DNA of 37,262 nt from Roseateles toxinivorans (GTDB lineage Bacteria; Pseudomonadota; Gammaproteobacteria; Burkholderiales; Burkholderiaceae_C), in the NCBI GenBank assembly GCA_945898095.1, contig CAMDHE010000039.1, positions 1-37,262 of the forward strand, written 5' to 3'. A program made the translations under genes and the position numbers. Numbering within the stretch: the first letter of the stretch is position 1; each line of letters starts with the position of its first letter. Under the pieces are notes generated by a model. The model did not search any database and was not told the DNA's origin. It saw only the letters and a program-made list of their open reading frames with translations. Positions 12,525 to 37,262 of this stretch are shown piece after piece.

Positions 12525-13901
12525 TCACTTGCCGATACAGAACTTGCTGAAGATCTCGCCGAGCAGGTCGTCCGCTGAAAACTGGCCGGTGATCTCGCCC
12601 AAGGCATCGTGAGCCAGGCGTAATTCTTCGGCCAGCAGGTCGAGCGCCGGTGGCGTCTGACCGGCCACAGCCATTGCCAGCAGCAGATGTTCGCGCGTGC
12701 GTTGCAGCGCCTGGACATGGCGTTCGCGGGCGATGTACAGGCCTTCGGGCGTCGACTGCCAGCCGACCTGTTCCAGCAGCCGGCGCCGTAATTCGTTCAG
12801 CCCAAGTCCTGATTTGGCGGAGAGGCTCAACGCGCCAGCGGGCAAGGGCCCGCTGCTCGCCGCGTCGGCCTTGTTGTAGACCTGCAGAATCCGCTGTGGC
12901 GCGATCTCGGCCAGGCGGGACTGGATGAGCAAATCGCCGGCCTGATAGTCAGGCTGGCCGATGCGGGTCAGGTCATGCATGAAGATCAGCATGTCGGCAT
13001 CATTGATCGCATCCCAGCTGCGCGCCACGCCGATCCGTTCGACCTCGTCTTCGGTGTCACGCAGACCGGCGGTGTCGCTGATATGCAGCGGCACGCCTTC
13101 GATCTGAATCGTCTGGCTGACCTTGTCGCGCGTGGTGCCTGGCACTGGCGTGACGATGGCCAGTTCAGCGCCAGCCAGGGCGTTCAGCAACGAACTCTTG
13201 CCCACATTGGGTTGGCCGGCCAGCACCACCTTGATGCCCTCGCGCAGGATCGCACCCTGGCGCGTGCGCTGCAAGACGCCGTCGACTCTGATTTGCAGGC
13301 GCGCGAGCTGACCCAGCGCATCGGCTTGCTGCAGGAAATCAAGCTCTTCCTCGGGGAAGTCGAGCGTCGCCTCGACCAGCATGCGCAGCTTGATCAGCGC
13401 ATCGCGCAGTTCGCTGACTTCGCTCGAGAGCGCGCCGGCCAGCGCGCGGCTGGCGCTGCGAGCTGCGGCCTCGGTGCTGGCGTCGATCAGGTCGCTGACG
13501 GCCTCGGCCTGCGCAAGGTCGAGCTTGCCGTTCAGATAGGCGCGTTGGGTGAACTCACCGGGCAGCGCCAAGCGCAGCCGCAGCTCGCGGCCGGCGTCCA
13601 GGCAGCGTGCGAGCAGCAGTTGCAGCACGACCGGGCCGCCATGGGCTTGCAGTTCCAGCACATGCTCGCCGGTATAGGAATGCGGGCTGGGGAAGAGCAG
13701 CGCAAGGCCCTGGTCAATAGCTTCGCCCTTGGCGTCGAGAAAGGGCAGGTAAGTCGCCTCGCGCGGCCGCAAGTCGCGTGCGCAGATCGCCGCGATCAGG
13801 GGCTGCAGGTCTGATCTGGAAGAAATCCGCAAGATACCCACCGCTCCGCGTCCCGGGGCAGTGGCGATGGCGGCGATAGGATCTTGGTGGCGCGACAGCA
13901 T
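12525..13901 (-). CDS. mnmE: tRNA modification GTPase MnmE (TrmE)
   Basis: MnmE with MnmG makes the 5-carboxymethylaminomethyl (or 5-aminomethyl) group on wobble uridine 34 of several tRNAs. The 458-residue product has an N-terminal tetrahydrofolate-binding domain (1-120), a helical domain, and an inserted G domain with G1 GQPNVGKS (229-236), G2 GTTRD (255-259), G3 DTAG (276-279) and NKAD, and ends in the invariant FCIGK whose cysteine is catalytic. The start at 13901 gives [20 protein letters not shown], the normal MnmE N-terminus. It is in the expected place, on the same strand as yidC but about 410 bases away behind the yidC terminator, so it needs its own promoter. Confidence 0.97.
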
Positions 13902-17377: not shown

Positions 17378-17428
17378 CCTCTGGTTTTTATGTTTTCAGT
17401 CCGTACAATCGGGCCCCTCCTGAACAAG

Positions 17429-17437
17429 TTTTCCACA
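17429..17437 (+). other. Near-consensus DnaA box abutting dnaA ATG
   Basis: TTTTCCACA differs from TTATCCACA at one position and ends at the base before the dnaA ATG (17438). DnaA bound here would cover the start codon region, which suggests autoregulation. Confidence 0.55.
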
Positions 17438-18901
17438 ATGAGCGCAGAGATGATTGGCGCAGACCTGTGGCAGCGCGGTTGTGATCGATTAGCCGCTGAA
17501 CTGCCCGAACAACAATTCAATACCTGGATTCGTCCCTTGCCGCCTGCTGTTTTGGCTGACGGTGCCGGCGCGGATGGCCTGGTGTTCTGCCTGCGCGTGC
17601 CCAATCGTTTCAAGCTCGACTGGATTCGTAACCAATATTCAACAAGGATCGAGTCGATCCTGTCCGAACTGGCCGGCAAGCCGGCCAAGCTCGAGCTGGC
17701 CTTGGCCTCCCGGGACAATGTAGGTCAGCCTTCGCAAGCGCTGCCTGCCAACCAGCCGATTGCGGTCGGGCAGGTCTTGCACAACGGCTTGCGGCCGGTG
17801 TCGATCAATGGCGCTGCTACCGTTCAATCCAGTTCATCGCCCAACCAGATCGCGCAGCAAAGCCCGGCCCCGAGTTCCACTCGCCACCGCATCAACAGCG
17901 CGCTGACCTTTGACAATCTGGTGCCCGGGCGTGCCAACCAGATGGCGCGCACTGCGGCCTTGCATGTCGCCGGCGCGCCAGGGCAGATGTACAACCCGCT
18001 GTTCATATATGGCGGCGTGGGTCTGGGCAAGACTCATTTGATCCATGCGGTCGGCAATGCCTTGCTGAAGGACAAGCCGGACGCCCGCGTGCTCTATCTG
18101 CATGCCGAGCAGTTCATCTCCGATGTGGTGAAGAACTACCAGCGCAAGACTTTTGATGAGTTGAAGGCCAAATACCATTCGCTCGACCTGCTGCTGATCG
18201 ATGATGTGCAGTTCTTCGCCGGCAAGGAGCGCACGCAGGAGGAGTTCTTCAACGCCTTCGAGGCGCTGCTGGCCAAGCGGGCGCACATCATCATGACCAG
18301 TGACACCTACCCGAAGGGCCTGGTGGACATCGACGAGCGCTTGACCAGCCGCTTCGATGCCGGTTTGACCGTGGCGATCGAGCCGCCCGAGCTCGAGATG
18401 CGGGTGGCGATTCTGATCAAGAAGGCCGAGGCCGAGGCCACGCCGATGCCCGAGGATGTGGCCTTCTTCATCGCCAAGAATGTGCGTGCGAATGTGCGTG
18501 AGCTCGAAGGTGCGCTGCGCAAGGTGCTGGCCTACAGCCGCTTCAGCCACAAGGAAATCAATATCCAGTTGGCACGCGAGGCGCTGAAGGATCTGCTGTC
18601 GATCCAGAACCGGCAGATCTCGGTGGAAAACATCCAGAAGACGGTGGCCGACTTCTACAAGATCAAGATCGGTGACATGTATTCGAAGAAACGCCCGGCC
18701 TCGATCGCCAGGCCGCGCCAGATTGCCATGTATATCGCCAAGGAGTTGACGCAGAAGAGTTTGCCGGAAATCGGCGAGCTGTTCGGCGGCCGCGATCACA
18801 CGACCGTGCTGCATGCGGTGCGCAAGATCGGCGGCGAAAGACAGAAAAATACCGAACTGAACCAGCAATTGCATGTGCTGGAACAGACTTTAAAAGGCTG
18901 A
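17438..18901 (+). CDS. dnaA: Chromosomal replication initiator protein DnaA
   Basis: DnaA binds the origin boxes, opens the duplex and loads the DnaB helicase. The 487-residue product has domain I (1-85, [20 protein letters not shown]), a Ser/Gln/Pro-rich linker domain II (about 95-150), the AAA+ domain III with Walker A GGVGLGKT (192-199), Walker [11 protein letters not shown] and the arginine-finger region, and domain IV with the DnaA signature around [19 protein letters not shown] at 17438 matches the usual N-terminus; an extension to 17390 would run through the DnaA box and is rejected. The ribosome site is poor, since the DnaA-box-like sequence takes its place. Confidence 0.98.
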
Positions 18902-19011
18902 TTCAGCTGGCAATGGTTGATTCGGGCAGGAATTGGCTTCGGAGTAAGTCAAAATGCGCGGTGCTGGCGTGATTGCGCCATCCCGATCAAAACAAGCGGA
19001 AAGAGGTTGAC

Positions 19012-20133
19012 ATGATTGTGTTGAAAGCCACCCAGGACAAGGTGCTTGGCGCCCTGCAAGCGGTCGCCGGCATCGTGGAGCGCCGCCACACCTTGCCCAT
19101 ACTCGCCAATGTGCTGATCCGCAAGCAAGGCGGAAACCTCGAGCTGACCACCAGCGATCTGGAGATCCAGGTGCGTACGACGGCCGAGCTGGGCGGGGAT
19201 GCGGGCGATTTCTCCACCACCGTTGGCGCGCGCAAGCTGATCGACATCCTGCGCTCGATGCCAGCCGATCAGACCGTATCGCTGACGGCAAATGCCTCCA
19301 AGCTGACGCTGCAAGGCGGCAAGAGTCGCTTCACGCTGCAGACCTTGCCCGCCGACGACTTCCCGCTGGTGCAGGAAGCCGCCGATTTCGGGCCGGTGTT
19401 CTCGGTGCCGCAGAAGACGCTGAAGATGTTGATCAACCAGGTGCACTTCGCGATGGCGGTGCATGACATCCGCTATTACCTCAACGGCATCCTGTTCGTT
19501 GCCGAAGGCAACAGCCTGACGCTGGTGGCCACCGATGGGCATCGCCTGGCGCTGGCGCAAGCCACGCTAGAGACCGACATTCCCAAGCAGGAAGTGATCC
19601 TGCCGCGCAAGACGGTGCTGGAATTGATGCGTTTGCTGAAGGACGGCAAGGGCGAAAGCGAAGAGCAGCCGATCGAGATGCGCTTTGCCGGCAATCAGGC
19701 CAAGTTCAGCTTCTCAGGCATGGAATTCGTGACCAAATTGGTCGAGGGCAAGTTCCCGGATTACAACCGCGTCATCCCGAAGTCGCACAAGTTCAATGTA
19801 ACGCTGGGCCGCGTGACGCTGCTGTCATCGCTGCAACGCGCCGCGATTTTGACCAGCGAAAAGTTCAAGGCCGTGCGCCTGTCCTTCGAGCCGGGTCTGT
19901 TGTCGATCGCATCGAGCAATGCCGAGCAGGAAGAGGCCAAGGAAGAGATCGAGATCGACTACGGCGGCGACCTGATCGAAACCGGTTTCAACGTGACCTA
20001 TCTGATGGACGCTTTGTCGAACATGAGCCAGGACATGGTCAGCATCGACCTGAACGACAGTTCGGCCAGCGCCTTGATCACCATCCCCGGGCAAACCGGC
20101 TTCAAGTATGTCGTGATGCCAATGCGGATCTGA
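19012..20133 (+). CDS. dnaN: DNA polymerase III beta subunit (sliding clamp)
   Basis: DnaN is the ring-shaped clamp that tethers DNA polymerases to DNA. The 373-residue product has the three-domain clamp fold: MIVLKATQDKVLGALQAVAG at the N-terminus, ERRHTLPILANVLI, FVAEGNSLTLVATDGHRLAL in the middle domain, and the C-terminal IPGQTGFKYVVMPMRI, with the MPMR end typical of functional clamps. ATG at 19012 is chosen because AAGAGG lies 6 bases upstream and because the preceding in-frame codons back to 18973 are not conserved. It follows dnaA by 110 bases and precedes gyrB. Confidence 0.97.
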   Translation: MIVLKATQDKVLGALQAVAGIVERRHTLPILANVLIRKQGGNLELTTSDLEIQVRTTAELGGDAGDFSTTVGARKLIDILRSMPADQTVSLTANASKLTLQGGKSRFTLQTLPADDFPLVQEAADFGPVFSVPQKTLKMLINQVHFAMAVHDIRYYLNGILFVAEGNSLTLVATDGHRLALAQATLETDIPKQEVILPRKTVLELMRLLKDGKGESEEQPIEMRFAGNQAKFSFSGMEFVTKLVEGKFPDYNRVIPKSHKFNVTLGRVTLLSSLQRAAILTSEKFKAVRLSFEPGLLSIASSNAEQEEAKEEIEIDYGGDLIETGFNVTYLMDALSNMSQDMVSIDLNDSSASALITIPGQTGFKYVVMPMRI

Positions 20134-20157
20134 GCCCGACGGCATCCTGAAAAAACG

Positions 20158-20180
20158 CAGCGGGCCAGTCTGGCCCGCTG
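20158..20180 (+). terminator. Strong hairpin between dnaN and gyrB
   Basis: CAGCGGGCCA (20158-20167) and TGGCCCGCTG (20171-20180) form a perfect 10-bp stem with a 3-base loop, preceded by an A-run. The downstream sequence ATGCAATTTTG is only weakly T-rich, so it may be a partial terminator, attenuator or mRNA stabiliser. Confidence 0.55.
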
Positions 20181-20181
20181 A

Positions 20182-22803
<2,622 letters not shown>

Positions 22804-27640: not shown

Positions 27641-27802
27641 ATGACCCACAGCCTTATCGCCCGGGGACAAGCGGGCTTGGTCGCCATCGCCACGGCCCTG
27701 CTTTCGGCCTTCGCCAGCGACGCGACGAACAACTCGCTCGCGGGTCTCCGTCCGGTTAACCCGTCCGCGTGCAAAGCCGCGCCAGCTCCGATCCACTCCT
27801 GA
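27641..27802 (+). CDS. Small predicted secreted peptide, 53 residues
   Basis: The frame reads MTHSLIARGQAGLVAIATAL, LSAFASDATNNSLAGLRPVN and PSACKAAPAPIHS. GGAG lies 7-10 bases before the ATG, a good ribosome site. Residues 8-26 form a signal-peptide-like core with a positive charge before it and an AFA-S cleavage site, leaving a mature peptide of about 27 residues with one cysteine. The stop lies 11 bases before the YHYH lipoprotein start, and that gene has no strong ribosome site of its own, so coupling is likely. I do not recognise a family. It could be a true microprotein, or a decayed start of a longer gene. Confidence 0.5.
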   Translation: MTHSLIARGQAGLVAIATALLSAFASDATNNSLAGLRPVNPSACKAAPAPIHS

Positions 27803-27813
27803 ATGGACAAACA

Positions 27814-28788
27814 ATGAATTTTTTCAAGACGCCGGCATTCGCCCGGAACCGCGTACCAGTGCCGATGCCCGTCGTCGCCTTGCTGGGATGTTTTGTGCTG
27901 ACCGCCTGCGGCGGTGGCAGCAGCGACACCACGACCACCAGCAGCACCGCCAGCAGCGGCACCGGCACCAGCACCGCCGGCGTGCTGTGCGACTACAGCA
28001 GCAGCCTGTTCAACAGCAGCCCGTCGGTGAATGCCACCGCTACCGCGACCTGGTCCTGCAGCAGCACCTTGCGGTCGTTGACGACCAATGGCTTGCCGGA
28101 TCACGCCGTGGGCATCTTCCCCAACGCCAATAACCCCAACACCATTGCAGCGAGGAATACCTCAGTGTCTGGGAAGCTGACCCCGACGCTCACCTCGGCC
28201 ATCACGGCGCAAAGCGGACCCGGCGTGGTGATGGGGTATGTCCTGAATGGCATCAAGCTCGACCCCGGTACGGCCGGCACCTGCGACGATACCGGCAACA
28301 ACTGTGACCCGGGACGCACCGTCGGTGCCTGGAACCTCGAAGGTATTGGCGGAGCCTTCGCTTTCGGCACCGATGTCAACAATGCGCATGTTCAGCCTGA
28401 CGGGGCTTACCACTATCACGGCATCCCTGAGGGCTTTGTCGCGAAGTTGAACAAGGGTCAGGCCATGACCCTGGTCGGTTGGGCGGCCGACGGTTTTCCC
28501 GTCTATGCACGTTATGGCTACAGCATCGCCACCGACGCGACTTCGGCATTGAAGGTCATCAAGTCCAGCTACCGCATCAAGTCGGTGCCGGATGCCAAAC
28601 GGCCGGCCATCAGCCTGCTCCCGATGGGCACCTTCACGCAGGACTTCGAGTACCTGGCGGGCCTCGGTGATCTCGACGAATGCAACGGCCGCAGCGGCGT
28701 GACGCCCGAGTTCCCCAAGGGCATCTACCATTACTACGCGACCGAGAGCTACCCTTATCTGCAACGCTGCGTGAAGGGTCAGATTTGA
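27814..28788 (+). CDS. YHYH domain lipoprotein
   Basis: A 324-residue predicted lipoprotein: hydrophobic n-region and lipobox LTAC with C32, then a Gly/Ser/Thr-rich linker (33-57). The main domain matches the YHYH family, of unknown function: LPDHAVGIFPN.ANPN near residue 94, GYVLNGIKLDPGTAGTC, NNAHVQPDGAYHYHGIPEGF with the YHYH at 199-202, VGWAADGFPVYARYG, and LDECNGRSGV...FPKGIYHYYATESYPY at 288-314. Histidines and cysteines are conserved and a metal site is plausible. Start at ATG 27814, straight after the small peptide gene. YHYH genes often lie beside TonB-dependent receptors and HupE/UreJ-like genes, as I recall, and the context here agrees with that. Confidence 0.88.
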   Translation: MNFFKTPAFARNRVPVPMPVVALLGCFVLTACGGGSSDTTTTSSTASSGTGTSTAGVLCDYSSSLFNSSPSVNATATATWSCSSTLRSLTTNGLPDHAVGIFPNANNPNTIAARNTSVSGKLTPTLTSAITAQSGPGVVMGYVLNGIKLDPGTAGTCDDTGNNCDPGRTVGAWNLEGIGGAFAFGTDVNNAHVQPDGAYHYHGIPEGFVAKLNKGQAMTLVGWAADGFPVYARYGYSIATDATSALKVIKSSYRIKSVPDAKRPAISLLPMGTFTQDFEYLAGLGDLDECNGRSGVTPEFPKGIYHYYATESYPYLQRCVKGQI

Positions 28789-28982: not shown

Positions 28983-29831
28983 TTGACCCCTTCGAATCTG
29001 ACCTTTGACAAGCGTTGCGGCATCGCCTGGCGCCGCAGCGGAATCATCTTTGCGATGAGCCTTGCCATGGTGGCCGCGCTGGCGACCCCTGCACATGCGG
29101 CCGCCTTTGTATCCACTCAGCCCACGCCGCGCGTGGAGCATTGGCAAATCCGGCAGCTGGCCATAGAACAGGAGTTGCAGGACCGCAAACGCATGCAAGC
29201 CACAAGGCTTGTTTTCGTGGGCGACTCCATCACCGACTTCTGGCTCTTCGACGACAACCCCTGGGTCAGCGGGCAGAAATATGGCCGGCAGCTCTGGAAC
29301 GAAAGCTTCACCGGCAGCACCCCGCAGAACCTGGCGTTGAACATCGGCATTTCGGGTGACCGCACCGAGCATGTGCTGCATCGCCTCAAGCCGCGCGCGG
29401 CCGGTGGTCTGGGGCATCTCGATGCGCAAGGCCTGAAGCCGGAGTTTCTGGTGGTGATGCTCGGCATCAACAACACCTGGGCTGCCGAGTCGCCGGTCGC
29501 CGACAGCGTCTTCGAGGGCGTGCGAGCGGTACTGGTGGCGGCGCATCAGCGGCAACCGCAGGCGCGCATCGTGCTGCAATCCATCCTGCCCACCAATGAT
29601 CCAGCGAAGAACCGCGAGGTGGTGCAGGTGGTGAACCAGCGTCTGCTGGCGCTGGCACGCAGTCCGGAATGGTCAGCCTTCACCAGTTGGCTTGATTTGA
29701 CTCCCGGCTTTGTCGATGCCCAGGGCCAGCAGGTGGCTGGGCTATTCACCGATGGCTTGCACCCCAACCAGGCGGGCTACCGCATCTGGCGCGATCGTCT
29801 GTTGCCCTTCCTGCAAACCTTGCGGCGCTAG
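28983..29831 (+). CDS. SGNH/GDSL family hydrolase, predicted secreted
   Basis: A 282-residue esterase of the SGNH superfamily, close to the platelet-activating-factor acetylhydrolase / lysophospholipase-like group. Signal peptide: KRCGIAWRRSGIIFAMSLAM...ATPAHA (about 10-39). Block I is FVGDSITDFW with nucleophile S82, the oxyanion Gly lies in NIGISGDRTEH, block III is GINN (161-164), and block V has D257 and H260 in DGLHPNQAGY. TTG at 28983 is used since it keeps the Arg residues before the hydrophobic core; ATG at 29055 would leave a core with no positive n-region. It probably cleaves an ester on a glycan or lipid in the periplasm. It follows the YHYH gene and the remnant on the same strand. 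Confidence 0.87.
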   Translation: MTPSNLTFDKRCGIAWRRSGIIFAMSLAMVAALATPAHAAAFVSTQPTPRVEHWQIRQLAIEQELQDRKRMQATRLVFVGDSITDFWLFDDNPWVSGQKYGRQLWNESFTGSTPQNLALNIGISGDRTEHVLHRLKPRAAGGLGHLDAQGLKPEFLVVMLGINNTWAAESPVADSVFEGVRAVLVAAHQRQPQARIVLQSILPTNDPAKNREVVQVVNQRLLALARSPEWSAFTSWLDLTPGFVDAQGQQVAGLFTDGLHPNQAGYRIWRDRLLPFLQTLRR

Positions 29832-32533: not shown

Positions 32534-33397
32534 TCAGGCCGGCGAAGTCCGGGCTGCCGCGATTGCCGCCACCCGGGCGGTGACTTCCTTGCGGAACCGG
32601 TTCAACTCCTGGACATTGGCGAAGCTGCGCTCCATCAGCAAGCTCATGTTGTGCAGGATGCGCTCGACCACCTTGCCCTCCCAGACGGCGTCGAACTGGA
32701 TTTGCTTGTCCAGCCAATGTTCGAGCCAATCGGGGTCAGGAATCCGGCTCTGGATGGTGTCGCGGGGGAACAGCGTCGCATTGACATGCAGATTGGTCGG
32801 ATGCAGCGCTTGCGCAGTGCGGCGCGCACTGGCCATCAGCACGCCGACCTTGGCGAAGGCGGCGCGGGCTTCGTCGCCGAACTTGACCAGCGCCCGCTTC
32901 ATATAGCGCAGATAGGCGCCGCCATGGCGTGCTTCGTCGCGTGCCAGGGTTTCGTAGATCGCTTTGATGACCGGCTCGGTATGCCATTCAGCAGCCCGCC
33001 GGTACCAGTGATTGAGCCTGATTTCGCCGCAGAAATGCAGCATCAGGGTTTCCAGCGCCGGGGCCGGGTCGAAATCAAAACGCACCTCGTGCAGCTCGGC
33101 TTCGGTGGGGGCCAGATCAGGCCGGAAACGACGCAGGTATTCCATCAGCACCAGCGAATGCTTTTGTTCCTCGAAAAACCAGACGCTCATGAAGGCCGAA
33201 AAATCGCTGTCGTCCTTGTTGTCGCGCAGGAACATCTCGGTGGCTGGCAAGGCCGACCATTCGGTGATCGCATTCATCTTGATCGTCTGGGCCTGGGCAT
33301 CAGTCAGCTGGCTGGCATCGAACTTGTCCCAAGGGATGTCGGTATCCATATTCCAGCGCACGGCTTCCAGCTGTTTGAAAAGTTCCGGGTAAAGCAT
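32534..33397 (-). CDS. Diiron ferritin-like protein, acyl-ACP desaturase family
   Basis: A 287-residue protein with the four-helix diiron motif set of acyl-ACP desaturases: carboxylate E46 or E54 (ITEWSALPATEM), E77-x-x-H80 (FFEEQKH), E125 (FCGEIRLNHW) and E155-x-x-H158 (ARDEARHGG). This set can bind a diiron centre that activates oxygen. Plant stearoyl-ACP desaturases have about 360 residues; this one is shorter and lacks a transit peptide. Whether it desaturates acyl chains, hydroxylates or oxidises another substrate cannot be told. It lies 33 bases behind the B12-binding regulator on the same strand, so both are probably one transcript. Confidence 0.82.
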   Translation of the reverse strand: MLYPELFKQLEAVRWNMDTDIPWDKFDASQLTDAQAQTIKMNAITEWSALPATEMFLRDNKDDSDFSAFMSVWFFEEQKHSLVLMEYLRRFRPDLAPTEAELHEVRFDFDPAPALETLMLHFCGEIRLNHWYRRAAEWHTEPVIKAIYETLARDEARHGGAYLRYMKRALVKFGDEARAAFAKVGVLMASARRTAQALHPTNLHVNATLFPRDTIQSRIPDPDWLEHWLDKQIQFDAVWEGKVVERILHNMSLLMERSFANVQELNRFRKEVTARVAAIAAARTSPA

Positions 33398-33430
33398 TGG
33401 TAATCCTGTTGATTTGAAAATCTTTTTGTC

Positions 33431-34411
33431 TCAGGCCTGTGCAGCGCGCCATCGGGATACCTCGCCGGCGATGGCGGAGAGTGCAGTGACGCGGCGGACG
33501 CCGTCAAGGCCCGAGCCCCGCTGCAAGGCCTGCGAACTGCCGCCAGCCCAAAGCGCGACGCCGGGCGGCAATTGCGCGCGCAACTCGCCCAGGCTGCGTT
33601 GCACCATGCCGGTTGACAGGATGCCGGTGAAGCTCAGGGCGACGATGTCGGCCTTGTGCGAATTGGCCGCGCGGATCAGTTCGTCCAAGGGTGTCTGTAC
33701 CCCGAGCGACAGGCATTGGCAGCCTGCCAAGGCCAGCATGGTTTCGACCATCAGCAGACCCAGACCATGTTGCTCGCCGGGCAGGGTGGTCAAAACAACC
33801 CGCGGCCGCTCGGCCAAAGCATCGCGGGGAATCGATTGCAAGGCCTGACGCAGCAACTGTTGCAGCGATTCGGTATAGATATGTTCTTCAAAAATCGCCA
33901 GTTCGCCGTTCAGCCATTTTTCCCCGATCAAGCCTGTCAATGGCGCAATCAGCTCGAGCAAGCAGGGTCCGAGCCCCATGCGCAGCATCGCCTGTGAAAG
34001 CAAGCGCCGCAGGCCATCGACATCATGAGCGATCAGCATCTCGATGCACCTAGCCTGCTCCTTGAGCAGCGATGCCCCCGTCGCCGCCACTTGCCTGGCG
34101 CTGGTCTGGACCAGCAGCAAGGCCTCAAGTGCTTCATGGCTGGCTGCCACCACCCGGCCCGGGCGATGCCCTGCGTCGAGCAGACGTTTCAAGAGGCGCA
34201 GGCGCTGCACCTGCTCGGCCGGGTAGACCCGCTCGCCTGAAAGATCGCGCAGCGGGGCCGGGAAACCATAGCGGCGCTCCCAGGCTCGGAGCAAGTCCTT
34301 GCTGATGCCGGTATCCCGCTCGACCGCCGAAATGCCCGGCAGGCCTTGCAGCAGCGCATTGGCGGCATCGACTCGGATCTTGGAGTTGCCGGGAGAGGTC
34401 GGGGATTTCAA
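33431..34411 (-). CDS. MerR-family regulator with B12-binding photoreceptor domain (CarH/LitR-like)
   Basis: A 326-residue protein: MerR helix-turn-helix (about 23-90, ISAVERDTGISKDLLRAWER, then RVYPAEQVQRLRLLKRL), a four-helix B12 cap with W166-x9-E176-H177 (the W-x9-EH motif that covers adenosylcobalamin in CarH), and a Rossmann-type cobalamin domain with E213-x-H215-x-x-G218. H215 would be the lower axial ligand, as in CarH. In CarH the dark tetramer represses and light breaks the Co-C bond to release DNA. The start is TTG at 34411; a TAG lies 4 codons upstream and no ATG or GTG is available, so TTG is forced. It shares the 85-bp promoter gap with the peroxidase operon. Confidence 0.88.
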   Translation of the reverse strand: MKSPTSPGNSKIRVDAANALLQGLPGISAVERDTGISKDLLRAWERRYGFPAPLRDLSGERVYPAEQVQRLRLLKRLLDAGHRPGRVVAASHEALEALLLVQTSARQVAATGASLLKEQARCIEMLIAHDVDGLRRLLSQAMLRMGLGPCLLELIAPLTGLIGEKWLNGELAIFEEHIYTESLQQLLRQALQSIPRDALAERPRVVLTTLPGEQHGLGLLMVETMLALAGCQCLSLGVQTPLDELIRAANSHKADIVALSFTGILSTGMVQRSLGELRAQLPPGVALWAGGSSQALQRGSGLDGVRRVTALSAIAGEVSRWRAAQA

Positions 34412-34415
34412 TTTA

Positions 34416-34430
34416 TTTGTCTAGGACAAA
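34416..34430. promoter_or_regulatory. Putative operator 1 at the regulator start
   Basis: TTTGTC (34416-34421) and GACAAA (34425-34430) are perfect inverted repeats around TAG. The site ends 4 bases before the regulator's TTG start codon. It shares the 10-mer TTTGTCCTAG (minus-strand reading) with operator 2, so the same protein probably binds both. Confidence 0.6.
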
Positions 34431-34450
34431 AGTGAGACAGAAATATCGAA

Positions 34451-34468
34451 TTGGCATAATATATAGGC
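34451..34468. promoter_or_regulatory. A/T-rich divergent promoter core
   Basis: TTGGCATAATATATAGGC contains CATAAT (34455-34460) and TATAGG, candidate -10 hexamers on the plus strand; TATATTATG on the minus strand can serve the other direction. No perfect -35 is seen at 17 bases, as often at MerR-controlled promoters. Confidence 0.4.
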
Positions 34469-34478
34469 TGAATCGACG

Positions 34479-34494
34479 TTTGACCTAGGACAAA
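34479..34494. promoter_or_regulatory. Putative operator 2 at the peroxidase start
   Basis: TTTGACCTAGGACAAA is palindromic in 14 of 16 positions and ends 2 bases before the ATG at 34497. It shares CTAGGACAAA with operator 1 in the same orientation. It takes the place of a ribosome site. Confidence 0.6.
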
Positions 34495-34496
34495 TA

Positions 34497-35081
34497 ATGG
34501 GCAAGAAATCTAAATGGCTTTTGCTTCTGCGCTGGCTCGGCCTCGCGCTGACCCTGAGCATCGGGCCGGCCGCCTGGGCCGCCACCAACAACTGTCCCGC
34601 ATTATTGCAGCGCGACATGCTGCGCTTGCAGGACGAAAAACCACAACCCCTTTGCCAATATGCAGGGCGTGTGGTGCTGGTCGTCAACACCGCCAGTTTT
34701 TGCGGTTTCACACCGCAGTACAAGGCCCTTGAAGCCTTGTCGAGCCGCTATGCCGAGCGCGGCCTGGTGGTGCTCGGCTTCCCGTCGAATGACTTCGGCA
34801 GCCAGGAGCCCGGCAGCAACAAGGACATCGCCGAGTTCTGCGAGAATACGTTCAACGTCAAGTTTCCGATGTTCACCAAGTCACATGTGCTGCCCGGCAA
34901 GCCGTCGACCAATCCGCTCTTCGCCGAGCTCGCAAAGCGCACCGACCAAGTGCCGAAGTGGAATTTCCACAAATATCTGATCTCCCGCGACGGCAGTGAA
35001 GTCCGCAGCTTCGGCTCGACCATTGACCCTGCCGGCCGGGCCTTCACGCAAGAGCTCGAGCGCCTGCTGGCCAAGCCATGA
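34497..35081 (+). CDS. Glutathione peroxidase family protein, exported
   Basis: A 194-residue thiol peroxidase of the GPx family. Signal peptide about 1-29 (WLLLLRWLGLALTLSIGPAA then WAA), so it likely works in the periplasm. The peroxidatic Cys is C69 in VNTASFCGFTPQY, the second block is FPSNDFGSQEPGS (residues 95-107) and the third is WNFHKYL (155-161); C115 in AEFCENTFN is the probable resolving Cys. In the second block Asp99 takes the place of the usual Gln of the catalytic tetrad. It may reduce lipid hydroperoxides using thioredoxin. It heads an operon with the FAD and DUF1365 genes, divergent from the B12 regulator. Confidence 0.88.
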   Translation: MGKKSKWLLLLRWLGLALTLSIGPAAWAATNNCPALLQRDMLRLQDEKPQPLCQYAGRVVLVVNTASFCGFTPQYKALEALSSRYAERGLVVLGFPSNDFGSQEPGSNKDIAEFCENTFNVKFPMFTKSHVLPGKPSTNPLFAELAKRTDQVPKWNFHKYLISRDGSEVRSFGSTIDPAGRAFTQELERLLAKP

Positions 35082-35097
35082 ATTCAAGACCTGCCTC

Positions 35098-36516
35098 ATG
35101 TCTGCAGCATCATCGGCATTGATCCGCTCGCAGCCTGATGCGGGAGCTTCCGCTGCCGCCGGCCATGCCGCGGCGCTGCTGCCATTTCTGCGCCAGCTGG
35201 GGCAGCCGGGCAGCATGCAGTCGCCGCGCCGCGTGGCGGTGATCGGATCGGGGATCGCGGGGCTTTCGGCCGCCTGGGCCATCAGTTCGCAGGCGCAGGT
35301 GACCCTGTTTGAGGCGGGAAAATATTTCGGCGGCCACACGCATACGGTCGAGGTCGAACTCGAAGGCCATAAGCACGGCGTCGACACCGGTTTTCTGGTC
35401 TTCAACGAGCGCACTTATCCGCTGTTGATCCAGTTGTTCCAGCAATTGGCGGTCGAGGTCGCGGCCAGCGAGATGTCCTTTTCAGTCCAGTTGCCCGACC
35501 AAGGCCTGGAGTGGAGCGGTACCAATTTGAACGGTGTTTTCGCCCAGCGCTACAACCTGTTGCGGCCGGGTTTCTGGGGCATGCTTGCCGACCTGCTGCG
35601 CTTCAATGCCTTGTGCAATGCCTTGGCCAGTTCCGGCGAAGAAGCTGCGATGGCGCAGCCGATCGGCGAGTTCCTGCGCGAGCAGCGCTTCGGCAATGCC
35701 TTCCGCGACTGGTATCTGATGCCGATGGTGGCTTGCATTTGGTCCTGCCCGACGGCGCAGATGCTGAGCTTTCCGGTCAGTACTTTGATCCGTTTTTGCC
35801 ATAACCACGGCCTGCTACAGATCAGCCAGCGGCCACAATGGTTCACCGTCAATGGTGGGGCCAAGCGTTATGTCGACAAGTTGCTGGCCGGCATCAAGGA
35901 TGCGCGGCTATCGACGCCGGTGACCGGTGTGCAGCGAATGCCACAGGGTGGTGTGATGCTGCGAACCGGGCAGGGCAGCGAGCGCTTCGATGCGGTCGTG
36001 ATGGCCAGTCACAGCGACCAGTCGCTGCGCCTGCTCGACGATGTCAGTTTGCAGGAGCGCCAGGTCTTGGGCGCCATCGGCTACCACTGCAACCGTGCGG
36101 TGCTGCATACCGATGCCAGCTTGTTGCCGCGCCGTCGTCGTGCCTGGGCGGCCTGGAACTACGAGCATGGCGGGCGCCGGTCAGGCGTGGAAGAACAGGC
36201 AGTCTGCCTGCACTATCTGCTCAATCGCCTGCAGCCCTTGCCTTGGCAGCAGCCCTTGCTGGTCTCGTTGAATCCGGTGCGCGAGCCGGTACAAAAACAG
36301 ATCCTGGGCGAATTCGATTACGCGCATCCGGTCTTTGATGCGGCAGCAGTGGCGGCACAGTCCAAGGTGGGCCTGTTGCAAGGGCAAGGCGATGTCTGGT
36401 TCTGCGGTGCCTGGACCCGCTATGGTTTTCACGAGGACGGGCTGCTGTCGGGCCTGACGGTGGCCAAAGCGCTGCTCGACGGCTGGGCGCAGCGCCCTGC
36501 ATTGGCGGCAGGATGA
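35098..36516 (+). CDS. FAD-dependent oxidoreductase (amine oxidase/phytoene desaturase-like)
   Basis: A flavoprotein of the NAD(P)-binding Rossmann/amine-oxidoreductase type. The FAD motif is RRVAVIGSGIAGLSAAWAIS with FEAGKYFGGHTHTVEV after it; the C-terminal part has VWFCGAWTRYGFHEDGLLSG, a typical FAD-contacting end. Relatives sit with DUF1365 and cyclopropane-fatty-acid synthase-like genes and are thought to modify acyl chains. ATG at 35098 gives 472 residues; ATG at 35215 (MQSPRRVAVIGSG) fits most homologues and leaves a 133-bp gap behind the peroxidase gene, so the first 39 residues may be non-coding. Its stop overlaps the DUF1365 start (ATGA). Confidence 0.87.
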   Translation: MSAASSALIRSQPDAGASAAAGHAAALLPFLRQLGQPGSMQSPRRVAVIGSGIAGLSAAWAISSQAQVTLFEAGKYFGGHTHTVEVELEGHKHGVDTGFLVFNERTYPLLIQLFQQLAVEVAASEMSFSVQLPDQGLEWSGTNLNGVFAQRYNLLRPGFWGMLADLLRFNALCNALASSGEEAAMAQPIGEFLREQRFGNAFRDWYLMPMVACIWSCPTAQMLSFPVSTLIRFCHNHGLLQISQRPQWFTVNGGAKRYVDKLLAGIKDARLSTPVTGVQRMPQGGVMLRTGQGSERFDAVVMASHSDQSLRLLDDVSLQERQVLGAIGYHCNRAVLHTDASLLPRRRRAWAAWNYEHGGRRSGVEEQAVCLHYLLNRLQPLPWQQPLLVSLNPVREPVQKQILGEFDYAHPVFDAAAVAAQSKVGLLQGQGDVWFCGAWTRYGFHEDGLLSGLTVAKALLDGWAQRPALAAG

Positions 36517-37262
36517 ACGCACTTGGCACAGGCGCATGGCCACAACAGGCCTTGATCGGGCGCGGTCTGGTCAGGCACAGGCGTCTGCGGCCCAAACTGC
36601 ATGAATTTGATTACCGCAGCTACTTCTTGATGCTGCCGATGCGTCGGCTGCGGCGCGAGCCCTGCGCGGCCTTGCACCGCAATCACAATGGTTTGCATTG
36701 GCTCGCATTCCATGACGCCGACCATGGCGACGGCGGCTCCGACAGTCTGGCCTGGATCGACGCGGTGCTGCACAGCGAGGGCATCGCCGACGCCGATGGT
36801 GAGGTCTGGCTGCATTGCTTTCCGCGCGTACTCGGTTTTGCCTTCAAGCCGGTCAGCTTCTGGTATTGCCAGCGCAAGGATGGATCGCTGGCCGCCATCC
36901 TGGTTGAAGTCAACAACACCTTCGGCGAGCGCCATTGCTATCTGCTGCAAGGCGAGGGTACCGAGGCCCTGGCCTATGGCCACGAACTGCAGGCGCGCAA
37001 GGTCTTCCATGTCTCGCCCTTCTGCCGCGTCGCCGGCAGCTACCGCTTCCGTTTCATGCACAGCAGCAGCGGCCGCACGCTGGCGCGTATCGACCATGAG
37101 GACGAAGGCGGGACGCTGCTGCAGACCAGCGTTTCAGGCCGCTTGCAGCCGCTCACCCATGCCAATGCCCGGGCCGCATTTTTTGCCATGCCCGCCCTGA
37201 GCTTGATGCTGGTCGCACGCATCCATTGGCAGGCCATCAAACTCGCCTTGAAGCGCCTGCCG
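36513..37262 (+). CDS. DUF1365 family protein, 3' end outside the window
   Basis: The first 250 residues of a DUF1365 protein; the frame is open to the window end. Visible marks are GRGLVRHRRLRPKLHEFDYR at the N-terminus, LMLPMRRLRR, WLHCFPRVLGFAFKPVSFWY, VEVNNTFGERHCYLL, FHVSPFC, YRFRF, and LMLVARIHWQAIKLALKRLP at the break. Family function is not settled. It nearly always follows an FAD oxidoreductase like the previous gene and precedes a cyclopropane-fatty-acid synthase-like methyltransferase. The start ATG at 36513 overlaps the FAD gene stop by 4 bp, so both are translated together. Confidence 0.88.
   Translation, partial: MNALGTGAWPQQALIGRGLVRHRRLRPKLHEFDYRSYFLMLPMRRLRREPCAALHRNHNGLHWLAFHDADHGDGGSDSLAWIDAVLHSEGIADADGEVWLHCFPRVLGFAFKPVSFWYCQRKDGSLAAILVEVNNTFGERHCYLLQGEGTEALAYGHELQARKVFHVSPFCRVAGSYRFRFMHSSSGRTLARIDHEDEGGTLLQTSVSGRLQPLTHANARAAFFAMPALSLMLVARIHWQAIKLALKRLP

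Follow-up and report, generated by a model that had tools for sequence, protein, structure and literature searches.

A CarH/LitR-type regulator with a complete B12-binding domain next to a putative membrane-lipid operon and a conserved diiron protein gene in Roseateles toxinivorans

Genes of the divergent locus

We analyzed a DNA stretch of 37262 bases from Roseateles toxinivorans (contig CAMDHE010000039.1 of assembly GCA_945898095.1), hereafter called the window, which is an entire contig (C39) of a 4.71-Mb genome in 209 contigs. Its right end harbors two divergent gene groups, one encoding a CarH/LitR-type regulator and a diiron protein, and the other a glutathione peroxidase (GPx), a flavin adenine dinucleotide (FAD)-dependent oxidoreductase and a DUF1365 protein. 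The original prediction had named these five genes, and all of them were found at their positions, with families confirmed by Pfam. Since the window spans the whole contig, the DUF1365 gene is truncated by the assembly. The features are as follows:

32534-33397, minus strand: diiron protein of 287 amino acids, similar to stearoyl-acyl carrier protein (ACP) desaturases (FA_desaturase_2 profile, predicted fold)
33431-34411, minus strand: MerR-family regulator of the CarH/LitR type, B12-binding domain complete, listed with a TTG start (Pfam)
34416-34430: predicted operator O1, TTTGTCTAGGACAAA, the sole exact TTTGWCYWGGACAAA match in its own genome, of a type conserved in carH-adjacent promoters
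34432-34460, plus strand: possible weak promoter GTGAGA-17-CATAAT towards gpx (1 found, 0.3 expected from shuffles)
34479-34494: predicted operator O2, TTTGACCTAGGACAAA, immediately ahead of the start codon of gpx, 1 mismatch from the palindrome TTTGTCCTAGGACAAA
34497-35081, plus strand: GPx with a Sec-type leader seen by eye (GSHPx, 4.2e-31)
35098-36516, plus strand: FAD-dependent oxidoreductase, UfaD-like (Pfam Amino_oxidase/NAD_binding_8)
36513-37262, plus strand: DUF1365 protein, UfaO-like, last residues lost at the contig end (PF07103, 6.9e-71)
Contig C116 (locus L133), 13311 down to 8541: putative continuation of the plus-strand operon

The regulator combines a MerR helix-turn-helix domain with complete four-helix and Rossmann B12-binding domains, as is characteristic of class I proteins (Pfam MerR_1, 3.1e-11; B12-binding_2, 9.1e-08; B12-binding, 5.4e-12), and matches the CarH structure 5c8d with an E value of 1.2e-26. 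The W-x9-EH and E-x-H-x-x-G motifs on which the original prediction relied are both present. They form part of the GxxW, EH, GxxH, and GxxxP signature reported for light-responsive cobalamin domains (PMC11796333, in the parts consulted), which is complete here (GEKW..EEH, GEQHGLG, GVQTP). These domains and motifs support a photoreceptor of the B12 type adjacent to a lipid-modification operon; the regulator probably binds adenosylcobalamin (AdoCbl) and responds to light; the genome itself encodes an adenosyltransferase. However, the regulator has a Leu after the Trp and thus lacks His132, which serves as second cobalt ligand in Thermus CarH. Of 31 carH loci, 28 allowed the motif to be located, and in these the position was occupied by Met, Leu, Val, Ala, or Thr, never by His. 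The photochemistry may thus differ from that of Thermus CarH. The NCBI CarH equivalog model gave 117 bits, below its cut-off of 400, and we therefore refer to the protein as CarH-type rather than as a CarH ortholog. Among the 57 genomes having both genes, CarH lies within 8 kb of DUF1365 in 50.

The diiron gene is located 33 nucleotides downstream of the regulator gene on the same strand, and this gap measured -14 to 224 nucleotides in 27 fetched relatives with a CarH gene directly upstream of the diiron gene, which suggests that both are co-transcribed. On the opposite side, the FAD and DUF1365 genes overlap by 4 nucleotides. The GPx contains Cys, Gln, Trp, and Asn residues that we take to be the active-site tetrad, and its leader indicates that it is probably exported. 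It aligns to yeast HYR1 (3cmi). The DUF1365 match covers positions 3 to 228 of the 235 in the Pfam profile.

A gene for a cyclopropane fatty acid (CFA) synthase-like protein had been predicted to follow beyond position 37262, and such a gene was indeed found at the end of contig C116. With the UfaM-type methyltransferase of a relative as query, the genome provided one close match (73% identity, C116) and one distant match (36%, C6). The C116 match begins 16 bases from the contig end, and its open frame reaches base 13311 of the 13312-base contig; it is followed by genes for a chalcone isomerase-like protein, a major facilitator superfamily (MFS) protein, DUF3833, a short-chain dehydrogenase/reductase (SDR), and SnoaL. 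As the ends of C39 and C116 do not overlap, we infer their adjacency. The same gene order runs uninterrupted in relatives, and it is identical in the annotated plasmid of Azoarcus sp. KH32C, where a MerR gene is divergent from FAD, DUF1365, CFA, chalcone isomerase, MFS, DUF3833, SDR, and NTF2 genes with 43 to 55% identity (54% for the FAD oxidoreductase). The gpx and diiron genes, in contrast, are not annotated in the Azoarcus stretch fetched. Given the putative C39-C116 join, the locus unites a CMAS methylase, an FAD oxidoreductase, and a DUF1365 protein, the combination that defines the UfaM/UfaD/UfaO cluster. According to the sections consulted of PMC7380195, these three proteins of Rhodobacter and Rhodopseudomonas make methylated and furan fatty acids, with which the predicted remodelling of membrane acyl chains agrees by analogy.

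Predicted operators in the shared promoter region

Two near-palindromes of the TTTGWCYWGGACAAA type flank the promoter region shared by the divergent operons. Matches to the O2 palindrome elsewhere in the genome carry 3 mismatches. Of 35 regions inspected, two (L063 and L086) belonged to neither of the classes compared below and were left uncounted. The half-site GGACAAA was present in 29 copies in 17 of the 20 carH-adjacent regions, the window included (shuffles: mean, 0.46; maximum, 3), and only once in the 13 regions scored as diiron-adjacent without carH, at a locus (L083) where carH is in fact present. The half-site also precedes gpx at 15 of 22 loci with carH and at 2 of the 16 remaining loci, and in one of these two exceptions (L129), the carH gene of the genome starts at the edge of the fetched stretch. 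The exact 15-mer occurred in 15 of 29 carH-positive versus 1 of 21 carH-negative genomes; when one mismatch was allowed, the numbers rose to 23 of 29 versus 9 of 21. Since the pattern was derived from these promoters, the carH-positive figure of each pair is partly circular. Together, these distributions support an action of the regulator on both operons; they are no proof of light control.

Two further possibilities were considered and rejected. A large CarH regulon in the genome is not apparent, as no sites other than the pair at the divergent promoter are conspicuous and looser matches were about as frequent as those of a reversed-pattern control. With up to 3 mismatches, there were 7 forward and 7 reverse operator matches versus 11 and 11 in the control; with up to 2 mismatches, the figures were 23 and 20 versus 14 and 14. 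The single-mismatch site (C128:4786) falls within an open reading frame (ORF). Control by RpoE-ChrR was discarded because the TGATC-N16-19-CGTA promoter was absent from the 300 bases upstream of the diiron, carH, gpx, and fad genes in the window and in 80 loci, insofar as these genes were found there. In addition, counting 8-mers in the 350 bases that precede the diiron gene revealed G+C-rich words only, the top word occurring at 21 of 61 loci versus a maximum of 13 in five shuffles.

Exact operators were also detected away from the lipid locus. Among 25 genomes there were eight, four of which precede iscR by 46 to 207 bases, each in a different carH-positive genome (L253 in G114, L255 in G021, L256 in G030, and L251 in G115). 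A site with one mismatch was observed at iscR in two further carH-positive genomes (L261 in G064 and L288 in G106), and none was seen at iscR of carH-negative genomes among the fetched loci. It is possible that iron-sulfur assembly is under light control through the iscR operator. The other four exact sites (L250 in G062, L252 in G139, L254 in G053, and L249 in G062) are near a lipocalin gene, a gene for a ChrR-like anti-sigma factor, a CCP/MauG-type ORF, and a chemotaxis-receptor ORF.

The diiron protein and its genomic neighborhoods

The diiron protein matches FA_desaturase_2 with 30.8 bits (cut-off, 22.7), although the best stretch comprises only 51 residues. It contains the ligand pattern E46, E77xxH80, E125, and E155xxH158 (E, ExxH, E, ExxH), placed on four helices in an AlphaFold model, and these motifs, together with an invariant HPTNLHV segment, are kept in all 80 homologues examined. 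The model is of middling confidence (pLDDT, 71.6), since the underlying alignment held only relatives of 83 to 94% identity. Its best structural neighbors are acyl-ACP desaturases over 233 residues, at 14 to 18% identity; compared with plant stearoyl-ACP desaturases and mycobacterial DesA2, the protein differs by this low identity and by its own HPTNLHV segment. An AurF-like identity was set aside, as the AurF profile scored below its cut-off. The extra histidine of AurF has no counterpart at the matching place.

Within the family, 89 of 150 genomes contain the diiron gene; outside it, the gene was detected in 7 genomes among 274 searched in the class. Its occurrence is associated with that of DUF1365 (79 genomes have both genes, 10 the diiron gene alone, 32 DUF1365 alone, and 29 neither; Fisher test, 1e-6, kinship ignored) and with that of carH (45 have both genes, 44 the diiron gene alone, 18 carH alone, and 43 neither; P = 0.012). 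In 51 of the 79 genomes with both genes, diiron and DUF1365 are at most 12 kb apart, one of them (G074) being counted on the basis of a partial diiron gene at a contig end. Among 73 family loci fetched for holding the diiron gene, carH is located within 3 kb upstream in 31, lipid-operon genes are present in 48, and gpx lies within 4 kb in 35. The original prediction considered the pairing of regulator and diiron protein as unusual, a view that requires correction: the pair is not peculiar to this genome, given how widespread and highly conserved the diiron gene is in the family and how often it adjoins the operon.

Several arrangements point to a role of the diiron protein in the same light or oxidative response. 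In L129, its gene is the last one (3' end) of the lipid operon. Outside the family, a photolyase gene comes directly after it in L114, and in L117 it is found after an SDR gene with divergent photolyase, FAD, and DUF1365 genes. At three further loci (L057, L067, and L074), a DPRP-type photolyase gene is located between carH and the diiron gene; these were found by reading ORFs and confirmed by Pfam, and a fourth (L093) was judged by eye only. A tblastn search with two classical photolyases against 161 sources returned matches only in the two loci of the queries themselves.

Other observations concern copies and genes elsewhere. The R. toxinivorans genome encodes a DPRP-type photolyase (G000:C157:3267-3950) apart from the carH-diiron pair. 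Among cultured relatives, Methylibium petroleiphilum PM1 probably has the complete cluster. Plasmid RPME01 of M. petroleiphilum (L291, 4291-6843) carries a second diiron copy with the RefSeq product name "ferritin", upstream of which genes for a haem-oxygenase-like iron enzyme and a crotonase are found on the same strand. In the window, positions 17390 to 22803 hold a row of genes that, read from their translations, we take to be dnaA-, dnaN-, and gyrB-like, so that the contig carries a region of the chromosome-origin type. A YHYH-domain protein with a lipoprotein-like leader, seen by eye, is encoded at 27769-28788 and adjoins a GDSL-type lipase gene (28983-29831).

Interpretation and relation to known systems

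Taken together, we consider it probable that the locus is a membrane-lipid operon controlled by a B12 photoreceptor, in which a diiron acyl oxygenase or desaturase is an accessory enzyme and the exported GPx acts as a lipid peroxidase. In this model, a dark repressor of the CarH kind would bind the two operators flanking the shared promoter region and keep off both its own operon (carH-diiron) and the divergent gpx-ufaD-ufaO-ufaM-chi-mfs-duf3833-sdr-snoaL genes. Light would cleave AdoCbl and release the repressor. UfaM, UfaD, and UfaO would then methylate, desaturate, and oxygenate membrane acyl chains, yielding methylated and possibly furan fatty acids, while the exported GPx would reduce lipid hydroperoxides. 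The diiron protein would contribute to the same membrane response in this family as a soluble enzyme that uses O2 to desaturate or hydroxylate acyl groups. The genes, their families, the operator sequences, and the conserved linkage are observed; AdoCbl binding, the light response, repression, the fatty acid products, and the diiron reaction are what we infer.

The strongest alternative, which we regard as rather unlikely, is that the lipid operon is light-controlled but that the diiron protein has an independent housekeeping function in this family and is encoded there by chance. Three observations weigh against a general link of the protein to the operon. No partner is nearby at 17 of the 73 diiron loci, so the protein is not tied to the light or oxidative response everywhere; it is 82 to 94% identical in 60 relatives, versus 41 to 78% for carH, gpx, fad, duf1365, and ufaM at the same loci, which suggests a constraint of its own; and it has other recurrent neighborhoods, for example beside genes that we take to be corA and hpf/ptsN/hprK. 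The proximity to DUF1365 in 51 of 79 genomes, the operon-end position in L129, and the photolyase neighbors, both in two other families and of the DPRP type, argue against a chance location.

It is improbable that the regulator senses something other than light, such as B12 status or redox, through the same domain. The missing His132 and the score under the NCBI CarH cut-off would fit such a function, but the four-motif signature of light-responsive cobalamin domains is complete, a residue other than His (Arg, Gln, or Tyr) at the His132 position does not prevent known proteins from acting as photoreceptors (PMC11796333, in the parts consulted), and photolyase-type genes are found in the putative operon of three relatives. 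Least probable of all is a ferritin-like iron store or detoxifier limiting Fenton chemistry in the light: the RefSeq name of the Methylibium plasmid copy and weak, below-cut-off matches to encapsulated-ferritin models favor it, but the protein has 287 residues, scores above the FA_desaturase_2 cut-off, while the Pfam listing at E 0.001 includes no Ferritin family, and its model has acyl-ACP desaturases as best-scoring structural neighbors over 233 residues.

Much of the proposed photoreceptor-controlled lipid operon has precedents. In their sections covered, PMC7380195, PMC9758184, PMC5241685, and PMC4336711 describe the operon type, its control by light or singlet oxygen, and a periplasmic GPx in such a regulon. 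The regulator resembles Thermus CarH, a class I LitR, in its MerR helix-turn-helix, both B12-binding domains, W-x9-EH, ExHxxG, and GxxxP, and differs from it in lacking His132, in its lipid rather than carotenoid gene neighbors, and in its putative TTTGWCYWGGACAAA-type operator. The Pseudomonas LitR proteins (PplR/PmlR) likewise control a cluster of ufaM and an FAD gene, in a light regulon with an SDR gene, phrB, and cryB, and have two binding sites, the first overlapping the -35 region and the second falling between the transcription start and the start codon, an arrangement similar to that seen here (PMC9758184, sections covered). In contrast to the present regulator, however, they belong to class II, are without a full B12 domain, and act through a LOV protein; their site, TGTACA-N12-TGTACA, differs from the operator found here, and no diiron gene is named in the same sections. 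UfaM, UfaD, and UfaO of Rhodobacter and Rhodopseudomonas are likened to the present proteins by family (CFA-like methylase, FAD desaturase, and DUF1365 monooxygenase); their genes are raised by ChrR loss, and neither a GPx nor a diiron gene is named in the sections covered (PMC7380195). The predicted export of the GPx, which had seemed unusual, has a counterpart in the RpoE2-ChrR oxidative-stress regulon of Shewanella, which includes the periplasmic GPx PgpD, a CFA-type gene, and photolyases, although there the GPx is in a separate operon with hemH2 and under extracytoplasmic function sigma control (PMC4336711, sections covered). A literature search for a CarH operator together with CFA and GPx gave no matches, and neither the diiron partner nor the regulator-operator pairing in this family was described in a limited search of the open literature, which for the diiron protein covered titles and abstract openings.

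Tentatively, the diiron protein may be an undescribed O2-dependent enzyme of a light-induced membrane-lipid pathway in Burkholderiales-type bacteria, in which case the lipid product switched on by a B12 photoreceptor would go beyond the known methylated and furan ones, and the same regulator would control iscR in some relatives. If this is true, a diiron enzyme tied by its neighborhood to a lipid pathway, a B12 photoreceptor, and photolyases would represent a missing step or a new product. The predicted operator provides a direct handle for finding photoreceptor targets in cultured species.

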